From positions 1 through 5,915 of the forward strand of contig QMNM01000105.1 in assembly GCA_003647765.1 (NCBI GenBank): a stretch of 5,915 bases of DNA, given 5' to 3'. The position numbers and the translations under genes are program-made. Origin of the DNA: Candidatus Cloacimonadota bacterium. Its GTDB lineage: Bacteria > Cloacimonadota > Cloacimonadia > JGIOTU-2 > B8-G9. Below, one piece after another: positions 1,691 to 5,915 of the stretch; within the stretch, counting starts at the first letter, position 1; each line of letters begins with the position of its first letter. The notes below the pieces were generated by a model that saw only the letters and a program-made list of their open reading frames with translations, ran no database searches and was not told the origin of the DNA.

Positions 1691-4603
1691 ATGATTAATA
1701 AAAGAAGTATTATCATTACTGATATTGGAAGCACGACAACAAAAGCAATCCTTTTTCAAAAAGAACGAGACAACTACAAATTGATTGATCTGCAAAATCG
1801 TCCTACAACTGTGGAAAGACCTGTTGAAGATGTAAAAATCGGGATTTATAATGCTATCAAAGAATTGGAAAGCAAAGTTTCCCAGAAGATTCTTTCTGAT
1901 GACTCATCACCAGAATACCTGAAATTTTTAGAGGATAGTATGTATCTAACTACAAGTAGTGCTGGTGGAGGACTGCAAATTTTAGTCATTGGCTTAACAT
2001 TGTTTGATTCTGCAAGTAGTGCAGAAAGAGCTGCTTATGGTGCTGGTGGAGTTATACTGGATACTTTTGCAGTTGATGACCATCGTTCAGCAGTAGAAAA
2101 AATGCAATTGATGAAGATATTGCATCCTGATATTATCTTGTTTTCAGGTGGAATAGATGGCGGAGCAATTAGTGGTATTTTTCGGCTTGGAGAAATTCTT
2201 ACTTTATCTCATCCTAAACCTAAATTTGGCGAAAAGGAGAAAATTCCATTAGTTTATGCTGGAAATAAAGATGCTCAATCATTTATCAAAACTTTATTCT
2301 CCAAGCAGTTTGATTTACATATTGTCCCAAATATTCGTCCAACTATGAAAGACGAAAATCTACAACCATCCAGAGATAAGATACATCAATTATTTATGGA
2401 TAATGTGATGGAACAAGCCCCAGGCTATCAGGAAGTAAAGCAGTTTGTTTCAGATGATATTATCCCTACTCCAATGGGCGTGATTAAAGCATTACAATTG
2501 GTCAGCAGACAGTTAAATGAAAACGTGATGGCACTAGATATTGGCGGAGCAACTACTGATATTTTCTCCAATATTCTGGGTCAATACTATCGCACTGTGA
2601 GTGCCAATTATGGAATGAGTTATAGTATTTCCAATGTAATGGCTGATTGTGGTTTTGATAAAATTAAGCAATGGCTTCCAGATGATATGGACGAAAATTA
2701 CATCCGTAATTATATTAGTAATAAGATGCTTTATCCTACTTATATTCCAAAGGATGATTATCAATTGGCTATTGAACACGCAGTTGCAAGAGAAGCTATC
2801 AGAATGGCAAAAGAACATCATATGAAGATGCACTTTAATACTGAACAGATTGGTATCCTGGATAAAATAAAAACCCGGAATTTAGATAAATTTGCTGAGA
2901 CCTTTTATGTAGAAAAAATGATTGAAAAGCGAAAATTTCATAATAAAGATATAAATATAATGATCGGTGCTGGTGGTGTGATTTCTAATGCAGAAAAAGT
3001 TGAACAATCTCTAATAAGCATTATTGATGGCTTAAATCCACAAGGCATTACAGAAATCTGGCGTGATAACCATTTTATCTCACCTCACATTGGCAAACTC
3101 AGCGATGTAGATGAGAAATTAGCCACAGAACTGCTGATGAAAGAGTGTTATGAAAAAATCGCATTAGTCATTAGACCAATTTATAAAAAGATGAAAATTG
3201 AACAAGATGTGATGTCAATATCTATCAAAAATGATGTTGAGAAAAGATACACAATCAAGGCAAATGAAGTGAAATATATCCCTAATGAGCAGAGAAAAGA
3301 GAGTCAGGTCGTTATTGAATTAGAAAAGGGATTTTATCTGCTGGATGACTCTCACAAAATTTCTTTGACATCTGATTTGCCAATTTTGATAGATACAAGA
3401 ATGAAAGAGGAGTTATCATTTACAAAACTTAATAATGAACTTGGGCTTTACAATCTTGAAAATAGGCAGTTGAATCTCAATGATTGCTTTGCTGATTTTT
3501 TTGAAAAGAAGGATATAGATACTGGAATTCATACTTTGACTATTTCATTGCCTTATGAGGGAGATATTTTTGTAGATGAAGGAGATAAGATTCAGCCAGA
3601 TACCTTAATTGGTGAAAACAGATATGACCCAGCAAGAATCTATGTTCTATCTTTATTTACTGATGAAAAACTGGAATTAACTCCTGATTCATTGAGAAAG
3701 AGTATTCTTGTCAAAAATGGAGATGAGATAAAGTTCGGTCAGAAGATTATTGAAATTGAATCACGAGGCATTATTGATGAGATAAAGGGAAAATATCATA
3801 CTTATCACTCTCCTGTTAGAGGAAGGATTGAAGATATAAACTTTTCCGCAGGCACTATTATTATAAGAGAAATTCAGGATTATTCCACAAAACCTATAGT
3901 AGTGGATGTTGCTAAAAAGTTAGGTGTTCATCCAAAGCATATCAAAGGGCATTTAAAGAAAGAATTAAATGATTTTGTTTACGCGGGTGAAGGTCTGGCT
4001 TCTAAATTGATACAAGGACGAGCCGTAATTATTTCTGCACCATCCACAGGAACGATAAAAGAGATTGATATAGAAAAGGGAACTGTAACTATTCAGTATG
4101 ATAAAAAGCCATATCAGAAATTCGCAGGTATTAGAGGAAAGGTTGTAAAAGTTGAGGAAAACATCTCTGCTAGTATTGAATATGAGGGAAGTAATCTATC
4201 TGGAATTATTGGATTTGGAAGTTCTGCAAGTGGAGATATTTTATTTTTTAAGGAAAATATGGATTTGGATGAAAAGACCTGTTGTGATAAAATTGTGGTC
4301 TATCCAGAAAAAATTGACTATCATATATTAAAACAATCAGCTGATATAAAAGTAAAAGGGATTATTGCTTCATCTATTGATAATAAGGATTTGGTTAAGT
4401 TTATTGATTCAGAGATTGGCGTTGCTTTAACTGGTGATGAAAAGATTCCGTATCCTATTATTATCACAGAGGGTTTTGGGGACTTCAAGATGGATGAAAG
4501 ATATGTAGAGTTTTTCAAGAAATCCGAAGGTAAACTGGCTTATATCAATGGACATACGCAAATAAGAGCAGGTGTAACAAGACCAAGAATTATTGTGATG
4601 TAA
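1691..4603 (+). CDS. glmL: GlmL/MutL-family reactivating ATPase for B12-dependent mutases, with long C-terminal extension
   Basis: The product has 970 residues. The first half, about 1-500, is an actin/hexokinase-fold ATPase of the GlmL/MutL family (not the mismatch-repair MutL). It shows a phosphate-1 loop DIGSTTTKA (11-19), the family stretch TTSSAGGGLQ (87-96), FSGGIDGGAISG (151-162), phosphate-2 loop DIGGATTD (283-290) and an adenosine-site GAGGVIS (426-432). Family members accompany glutamate mutase and B12-dependent aminomutases and are thought to exchange damaged cobalamin using ATP. Usual length is about 460 residues. Here a second half follows: beta-rich segments resembling barrel-sandwich or KOW-like folds (about 610-850: PYEGDIFVDEGD, SPVRGRIEDI, APSTGTIKEIDIEKGTV) and a C-terminal domain with ITEGFGDF (925-932) and INGHTQIRAGVTRP (952-965). 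No signal peptide or membrane segment is seen, so it is cytosolic. No mutase gene lies in the window, so its client is unknown. Confidence 0.9.
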   Translation: MINKRSIIITDIGSTTTKAILFQKERDNYKLIDLQNRPTTVERPVEDVKIGIYNAIKELESKVSQKILSDDSSPEYLKFLEDSMYLTTSSAGGGLQILVIGLTLFDSASSAERAAYGAGGVILDTFAVDDHRSAVEKMQLMKILHPDIILFSGGIDGGAISGIFRLGEILTLSHPKPKFGEKEKIPLVYAGNKDAQSFIKTLFSKQFDLHIVPNIRPTMKDENLQPSRDKIHQLFMDNVMEQAPGYQEVKQFVSDDIIPTPMGVIKALQLVSRQLNENVMALDIGGATTDIFSNILGQYYRTVSANYGMSYSISNVMADCGFDKIKQWLPDDMDENYIRNYISNKMLYPTYIPKDDYQLAIEHAVAREAIRMAKEHHMKMHFNTEQIGILDKIKTRNLDKFAETFYVEKMIEKRKFHNKDINIMIGAGGVISNAEKVEQSLISIIDGLNPQGITEIWRDNHFISPHIGKLSDVDEKLATELLMKECYEKIALVIRPIYKKMKIEQDVMSISIKNDVEKRYTIKANEVKYIPNEQRKESQVVIELEKGFYLLDDSHKISLTSDLPILIDTRMKEELSFTKLNNELGLYNLENRQLNLNDCFADFFEKKDIDTGIHTLTISLPYEGDIFVDEGDKIQPDTLIGENRYDPARIYVLSLFTDEKLELTPDSLRKSILVKNGDEIKFGQKIIEIESRGIIDEIKGKYHTYHSPVRGRIEDINFSAGTIIIREIQDYSTKPIVVDVAKKLGVHPKHIKGHLKKELNDFVYAGEGLASKLIQGRAVIISAPSTGTIKEIDIEKGTVTIQYDKKPYQKFAGIRGKVVKVEENISASIEYEGSNLSGIIGFGSSASGDILFFKENMDLDEKTCCDKIVVYPEKIDYHILKQSADIKVKGIIASSIDNKDLVKFIDSEIGVALTGDEKIPYPIIITEGFGDFKMDERYVEFFKKSEGKLAYINGHTQIRAGVTRPRIIVM

Positions 4604-4624
4604 AACGACCTTCTAATGTCGTTT
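4603..4624 (+). terminator. Weak hairpin at the glmL stop codon
   Basis: AAACGAC (4603-4609) and GTCGTTT (4618-4624) form a perfect 7-bp stem with an eight-base loop, starting in the glmL stop codon. Only three pairs are G-C and no U-tract follows. It is at best a weak terminator or an RNA 3'-end stabiliser. Confidence 0.35.
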
Positions 4625-4714: not shown

Positions 4715-5915
4715 ATGGATTATATAAAATTACCGCAGGATAATATTCCTTTAGTCCTTTTGGGTGATGTGATGCAGGGCTTGAAGAAAATACCTTCAGA
4801 ATCTATTTCTTGTATAGTAACTTCTCCGCCTTATTGGAATTTAAGAGATTATTATATGCCAGGGCAAATTGGTCATGAGCAAACACCTGAAGAATATATT
4901 ACCAAAATGGTAGAAATTTCAAAAGAATTGTTACGAATTTTGAAGAAAGACGGAGCATATTTTTTGAATATTGGTGATACATATATTGATAAAGGACTAC
5001 AAATGATTCCACAACGAGTTGCATATAGAATGATAAATGAAGTTAAAATGATTTGTAAAAACAAAAAAAAGGTAGGGTGGTTACTCCGAAACCAGATAAT
5101 CTGGTATAAATGCTTGACAGGAGATACTTCGCTTTTTATAAAGGCTGATGGGAAATATCAATTAACAACAATTTCGGAATTATACAATGAACTTAATTCT
5201 TTTAGAGAAGTGCTTCTACCTACAATTAGCAAGGAAGGGAAAGAAATATGGGTTAAAGTTAAAAAACTATTTTCTAACGGTAAAGCGCCTGTTAAAAAAA
5301 TAGTTTTAACGAGTGGACTTATAATAAAAACAACAGAAAATCATTATTTGCCTGTTTTGAAAGGAACACAGGCAAAAAGTAATAGATTATATTTTAAATT
5401 ACAGATAGAGAAAGTTTCTAATTTAAAAGAAGGAGAGCACCTCTGGTTAAATACGCATTTTAATATAGACTTACCAATAGGAAAACAAAAAGATTATAAA
5501 TATGGATATTTAGTAGGATTTTTCTTAGCAGAAGGCAATTTTATTTATAGAAAGAGATTTAACAAATGTAGTAATTTTTCTATGTATGCTTTGAAGCGAT
5601 GGGCATTGGAGAAAGGGTATTCTTCAGTGGAAGAGTATTTAAAAAACAGAAAAGAAAAAGAAATTGTTGGAATTGAATTATCTTGCGGCATAAAAGATGA
5701 AAAGAAAGGATATTTAGATAACTTCATCCATCTATTTGAATTTAAACAACATAAATATGGTAATGAACTAATGTTAGTATCTTATGGGGAAGTATGCAAT
5801 TTTATTGGTAAATATATTGGAGGCGATACATCTCATAATAAATTTCTTAAAAATGATGTATTTAATACTTCTATTAAATTTTTAAATGGTGTTTTACAAG
5901 GATTTCTTGATGGCG
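4715..5915 (+). CDS. DNA methyltransferase (probably cytosine-N4) interrupted by an intein; 3' end beyond the window
   Basis: The frame is open from the ATG at 4715 for 400 codons to the window edge. Residues 1-132 are the N-terminal part of a beta-class (N6_N4_Mtase) DNA methyltransferase. They show LLGDVMQGLKKIP (15-27), catalytic motif IV TSPPYWNLRDY (36-46), an LKKDGAYFLNIGDTY segment (76-90) and WLLRNQIIWYK (122-132). SPPY is more typical of N4-cytosine than N6-adenine enzymes; the target sequence is unknown. Residue 133 is a cysteine that opens an intein. In this class the SAM-binding FxGxG motif comes last, so it must lie in the C-extein, outside the window. This ATG is preferred because an in-frame stop lies at 4691 and ATG at 4710 is closed after five codons. 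No good Shine-Dalgarno is visible. The gene follows glmL by 111 bp of AT-rich DNA and is probably transcribed separately. Whether a restriction partner exists cannot be seen. Confidence 0.92.
   Translation, partial: MDYIKLPQDNIPLVLLGDVMQGLKKIPSESISCIVTSPPYWNLRDYYMPGQIGHEQTPEEYITKMVEISKELLRILKKDGAYFLNIGDTYIDKGLQMIPQRVAYRMINEVKMICKNKKKVGWLLRNQIIWYKCLTGDTSLFIKADGKYQLTTISELYNELNSFREVLLPTISKEGKEIWVKVKKLFSNGKAPVKKIVLTSGLIIKTTENHYLPVLKGTQAKSNRLYFKLQIEKVSNLKEGEHLWLNTHFNIDLPIGKQKDYKYGYLVGFFLAEGNFIYRKRFNKCSNFSMYALKRWALEKGYSSVEEYLKNRKEKEIVGIELSCGIKDEKKGYLDNFIHLFEFKQHKYGNELMLVSYGEVCNFIGKYIGGDTSHNKFLKNDVFNTSIKFLNGVLQGFLDG
5111..5915 (+). mobile_element. Intein with LAGLIDADG homing endonuclease, 5' part (C-terminal end beyond the window)
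   Basis: A protein-splicing element inserted in frame after WYK of the methyltransferase. Splicing block A is CLTGDTSLF, with Cys1 at codon 133. Block B is TTENHYLPV, with the TxxH pair Thr75 and His78 (intein numbering). From about intein residue 130 a dodecapeptide (LAGLIDADG, DOD) endonuclease follows: first motif LVGFFLAEGNF (134-144, acidic Glu141) and second motif LNGVLQGFLDG (258-268, acidic Asp267), 126 residues apart. The C-terminal splicing blocks F and G, with the final His-Asn and the Cys/Ser/Thr of the C-extein, lie outside the window. After splicing the two exteins would be joined into a normal methyltransferase; the endonuclease would spread the intein to empty alleles. The first 130 residues lack methyltransferase motifs, fitting the Hint fold. 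Confidence 0.92.

Follow-up and report, generated by a model that had tools for sequence, protein, structure and literature searches.

The window analyzed here is the whole of contig G000:C131 (5915 bases), which belongs to a metagenome-assembled genome (MAG) of 360 contigs (1.97 Mb, 88.8% complete). On its minus strand, the pdxA ORF (positions 3 to 1328) extends without a frame change into a sequence resembling a class I SAM-dependent methyltransferase domain (residues ~362 to 442 of the ORF), which the left contig end truncates; a PdxA-methyltransferase fusion is possible. A plus-strand gene at 1691 to 4603 encodes a GlmL/MutL-like protein of 970 amino acids with a C-terminal lipoyl-like region. 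This protein or a paralogue is present in most genomes of the order, and a second copy was found in the same genome on contig C2. Directly 3' of the GlmL-like gene lies a palindrome, AACGAC-CTTCTAAT-GTCGTT (4604 to 4623). Similar stretches occur at G000:C234:1-29, C30:6281-6314, and C13:8550-8578, and the palindrome is perhaps a repeated terminator-like element; a longer pattern that extends it downstream was unique. The last ORF of the window (4715 to 5914, plus strand) stays open up to the contig end, running for 400 residues without a stop.

Residues 1 to 132 of this ORF (4715 to 5110, plus strand) form the N-terminal part, or N-extein, of a beta-class N4/N6 DNA methyltransferase, as indicated by Pfam N6_N4_Mtase (PF01555; E = 1.1e-16) and by a homologue in G008, a genome of the same order. 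The Pfam match covers only residues 31 to 133, equivalent to profile positions 1 to 83 of 221. Catalytic motif IV, TSPPYW, lies at 4820 to 4837 on the plus strand, and its TSPPY is invariant in our methyltransferase alignment (A1). Beta-class enzymes are defined by an (S/D)PPY motif IV ahead of a motif I of the form FxGxG. Here, motif IV comes first and is in the window, while motif I was seen outside the window sequence, as the C-terminal DPFAGSGTT of the near-identical G008 protein. The last residues of the N-extein, W130-Y-K132 (5102 to 5110, plus strand), belong by their homologue columns to a conserved IIWxK(P)NxMP segment. Across 90 distinct homologues, counted with W and K as the anchors of the motif (both are also invariant in A1), Ile occupied position −4 in 81/90 and position −3 in 79/90, and downstream of the junction Asn was found at +2 in 69/90, Met at +4 in 68/90, and Pro at +5 in 76/90.

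The G008 homologue is an uninterrupted, intein-free protein of 433 amino acids. It matches the N-extein at 369/396 nucleotides (93.2%) and 127/132 amino acids, with 19 synonymous and 5 nonsynonymous codon differences. DNA identity stops exactly at 5110|5111, beyond which only 23/90 bases match; the intein sequence is missing from G008, whose protein reads IIWYK|PNHMPSPVK across the empty site. Since the similarity ends at this point, the intein starts at Cys133. Alignment to an intein-free homologue, a check proposed in the preliminary description of this DNA, has fixed the insertion point to the base.

The remaining 268 residues of the ORF (5111 to 5914, plus strand) are the N-terminal part of an intein that runs off the contig. 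The TIGR01445 model (intein_Nterm) matched residues 133 to 212, or profile positions 1 to 81 of 83, with 34.2 bits against a curated NCBI cut-off of 24.5 bits; the match begins at profile position 1, exactly on the junction, and was recovered again in a genome-wide search. Its start is splicing block A, CLTGDTSLF (5111 to 5137, plus strand; CLTGDT at 5111 to 5128), with Cys1 as the nucleophile. Block B, TTENHY (TxxH; 5330 to 5347, plus strand), aligned with block B of other inteins from the phylum, and profile comparison (hhalign) of intein residues 1 to 87 with six of these inteins gave an E value of 2.2e-5. Together with the empty allele in G008 and the conservation of the segment in 90 homologues, the TIGR01445 match bears out the preliminary description of a beta-class DNA methyltransferase interrupted by an intein in a conserved segment. 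In beta-class enzymes, the target-recognition region follows the point of residue 132 in sequence, so the segment beyond it could in principle be a target-recognition domain of unusual form in an otherwise ordinary methyltransferase. This explanation is untenable for practical purposes, with a probability close to nil, because a near-identical (95 to 96%) intein-free allele continues as a normal methyltransferase at the same residue and because the intein_Nterm cut-off is exceeded.

The preliminary description had named CLTGDTSLF and block B along with two LAGLIDADG motifs, and the latter find support at the motif level. LAGLIDADG homing endonucleases carry two such motifs ~100 to 125 residues apart, and we found LAGLIDADG-like stretches in the expected order at residue 264 (GYLVGFFLAEGNF; 5504 to 5542, plus strand) and at residue 389 (FLNGVLQGFLDG; 5879 to 5914, plus strand), the second being incomplete where the contig end cuts it. 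The next contig base after VLQGFLDG in motif 2 is a G, which is compatible with the expected Asp but is no proof of it. When the pair was scored against the motif blocks of six complete phylum inteins, 29/3000 shuffled sequences did as well (p ~0.01), a moderate margin over chance, and Pfam LAGLIDADG models gave no match to the ORF at E ≤ 1; because of these two results, we treat the endonuclease as a motif-level assignment. A solved-structure search with the intein alone returned no match, and a single-sequence AlphaFold2 prediction had a mean pLDDT of 33.8.

Searches of the genome with the methyltransferase profile, a model of intein C-termini, the C-extein of G008, and the final 22 bases of the contig located neither the intein C-terminus (blocks F and G) nor the +1 residue nor the C-extein on any contig of the assembly. 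Contigs C318 and C20 do have matches to intein C-termini, but these are parts of a ribonucleotide reductase and an RNA ligase and were rejected as the missing half. Because the contig stops inside the intein and the remainder lies on no other contig, we can only infer splicing and homing. A contig end 805 bases past the junction, in a MAG of 360 contigs, and a same-site intein seen nowhere else in the phylum might also be expected of an assembly or binning chimera joining the methyltransferase 5' part to the intein of another gene. Such a break would need to hit the extein/intein boundary exactly, in frame, and after the conserved Lys, and neither the genome nor the phylum holds another copy of the intein to act as its source; we regard a chimera as very improbable.

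Class 1 inteins need to be followed directly by Cys, Ser, or Thr and cannot use Pro. At this +1 position, Pro is found in G008 and in 67/90 homologues, with Ser in 3/90 and Thr in 2/90. The site evidently tolerates both of the latter, since a Picrophilus plasmid relative has Thr (WHK|TNAMP) and a methyltransferase of G001 has Ser (WYK|SNHMP). Since the empty G008 allele has Pro, the residue must be Ser, Thr, or Cys in any copy able to splice, and Ser and Thr codons are each one base away from the G008 codon (CCT). We predict that the window allele carries Ser, Thr, or Cys at +1; if it keeps Pro, the intein should not splice. A genuine insertion that no longer works, either as a decayed intein or in a gene truncated soon past the contig end, with an inactive methyltransferase in both cases, would fit the unseen 3' part, the weak LAGLIDADG signal, and the Pro of the nearest allele, which would block splicing if retained. 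It fits less well with a frame open across 400 residues, with the intact blocks A and B, or with an N-extein whose differences from G008 are mostly synonymous (19 versus 5 codons), and we consider it improbable, albeit the most credible of the alternatives.

Our preferred reading, with an estimated probability of roughly 0.83, is a canonical cis-splicing intein, most likely with a LAGLIDADG homing endonuclease, that directly follows Lys132 in a beta-class methyltransferase spreading by horizontal transfer. It builds on what was observed directly: a 5' junction placed to the base, an N-terminal splicing domain, an intein-free allele, and an intein cut short where the contig stops. Also in its favor are the conservation of the interrupted segment, the order of the LAGLIDADG-like pair, the commonness of inteins in the phylum (several of them complete, with HN ahead of C, S, or T), and the phage methyltransferase inteins at the neighboring codon. 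Counting against it are the unseen blocks F and G, +1 residue, and C-extein, the substitution that must be assumed given the Pro of the empty allele, the lack of a match to LAGLIDADG models, and the lack of a close intein homologue. Under this reading, Cys1, a C-terminal Asn, and a Ser, Thr, or Cys at +1 would serve to excise the intein from the precursor, and excision would join the IIWYK-(S/T)N-x-MP segment to give an active methyltransferase. The putative nuclease would cut close to the TGGTATAAA|CCTAATCAT junction in alleles that lack the intein, for example, the one in G008, and repair after cutting would copy the intein into the empty allele.

The methyltransferase appears to have a history different from that of its surroundings. 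PdxA of this genome is 56% identical to that of G008, versus 96% for the methyltransferase part, and the best orthologues of the GlmL/MutL-like neighbor in the order are 53 to 77% identical. In the relatives examined, the methyltransferase does not adjoin the GlmL/MutL-like gene, and the G008 copy is flanked by a PhoH-like gene on one side and by genes for short membrane or zinc-ribbon proteins on the other. These identities and differing neighborhoods make a recent horizontal transfer of the methyltransferase gene between families probable. Either one lineage acquired the intein or the other lost it. The possible restriction-modification locus of the preliminary description is less apparent; no restriction enzyme gene is visible in the window, which ends inside the intein, and none was found in 13 kb around the G008 copy. 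The best full-length plasmid match to the intein-free form, a methyltransferase of Picrophilus oshimae plasmid pPO1 (WP_014120428; 49.5% identity over 99%), has no intein, and the gene beside it matches a Type II restriction enzyme model. By analogy with this relative, a restriction-modification origin of the methyltransferase is possible.

The preliminary description took a DNA methyltransferase to be an uncommon intein host, which overstated the case, since inteins in N6_N4_Mtase proteins of mycobacteriophages have been reported (PMC5050341) and studied in detail (PMC9957025). These Dorothy_75-type inteins (DNMT-1/2) also interrupt this conserved segment, at a point between its W and the P that comes seven residues on, and the junctions that we read in Dorothy_75, Megiddo, Lilac, and an uncultured 484-kb phage follow W[LV]YG|C...FITGN|SGFPK. 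Their insertion codon differs from ours, lying after W+3 (WLYG|) rather than after W+2 (WYK|), and their hosts form a different, phage methyltransferase subfamily. Both families have seven residues from the W to the next Pro, which in a gapless alignment places the phage site one codon downstream. A BLASTP comparison of a Dorothy-type intein with the window intein gave an E value of 0.056, which is not significant beyond general intein features; the different codon and the lack of detectable similarity therefore mark the window intein as a separate allele. In the 484-kb phage (LR756508.1; L281), which is unannotated, the Dorothy-type methyltransferase intein sits at the same codon as the mycobacteriophage one and is 35.6% identical to it; two further places in LR756508.1 also match the intein. 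A hidden HNH element known as the ShiLan domain has been described in phage methylases (PMC11855218). Like the window intein, it is a mobile element within a DNA methylase gene, but it has no self-splicing domain, and its endonuclease is read out of frame.

No close relatives of the window intein were found in viral contigs, phages, plasmids, or the phylum, with no phage record at E ≤ 0.01. The suggested search for the same insertion site in other methyltransferase inteins likewise came up empty, with the phage examples falling one codon downstream; scans of ~85,000 species genomes and IMG/VR for the same junction returned only unrelated proteins or chance reading frames. The patterns used were W-[HYND]-K-C-[LFIMV]-x-G-D-T and, for viruses, also [IM]-W-x-K-C-[LFIMV]-x-x-[DE]-T. 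Because they keep W-x-K-C and some of block A constant, they would pass over an intein whose block A differs or whose junction is preceded by different residues, and the species set may omit the window's own genome or near relatives. Among 80 viral methyltransferases, no intein was seen at the insertion site. One viral methyltransferase frame from IMG/VR (L085:3001-4218) contains in-frame stops (MN*VKVVKK*..., DQK*IWHKPN) and is either a decayed gene or from a virus with a reassigned stop codon.

The locus is a genuine and new intein allele in a bacterial host, of a kind already known from phages. It adds a bacterial chromosomal case with a new insertion codon to methyltransferase inteins that have so far come mainly from actinophages, and it leaves knowledge of how inteins work unchanged. 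The near-identical natural empty allele makes a good pair for testing homing. The near-coincident insertion sites suggest that inteins have targeted the conserved motif repeatedly. A broader proposal is that WxK(P)NxMP is a convergent target, invaded separately by unrelated inteins at adjacent codons in phages and on a bacterial chromosome, and that here the intein and the methyltransferase gene are spreading together between distant hosts. We put this forward tentatively and think it rather doubtful as a whole, the convergence resting on a gapless alignment of distant enzymes and one bacterial example. If the two did spread jointly, cutting of the site could be linked to DNA methylation and to gene transfer.

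A total of 22 intein N-terminal matches were recovered from 12/124 genomes of the phylum, and among those that we read, only the window case lies in a methyltransferase. The phylum inteins (in ribonucleotide reductase and other genes; L259 to L279) share blocks A and B and, at the motif level, the LAGLIDADG architecture with the window intein but differ in host gene and insertion site. Two complete inteins have metabolic-enzyme-like hosts, which are unusual for inteins. From its flanks, the host of the intein on G008:C238 (L272:613-1716, minus strand; YDNEAYMN|C...HN|TGIQRSSA) looks 2-oxoacid ferredoxin oxidoreductase-like, and that of the intein on G016:C98 (L275 from 1501; TVRGGMT|C...SN|SHAAVVAR) looks like a PEP-utilizing enzyme. 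On contig C20 of the window's own genome (L278:1363-3228, L023:1-2085), an RNA-ligase-like gene is split after EKLDGAN by an N-terminal intein half that ends in a stop. There follows a free-standing, apparently frameshifted Vsr-like endonuclease ORF (weak Vsr match, E = 0.025), and the last ORF starts with a C-terminal intein half (NNILVHN) before the remaining ligase, an arrangement that we take to resemble the split-intein fractured genes of environmental phages.
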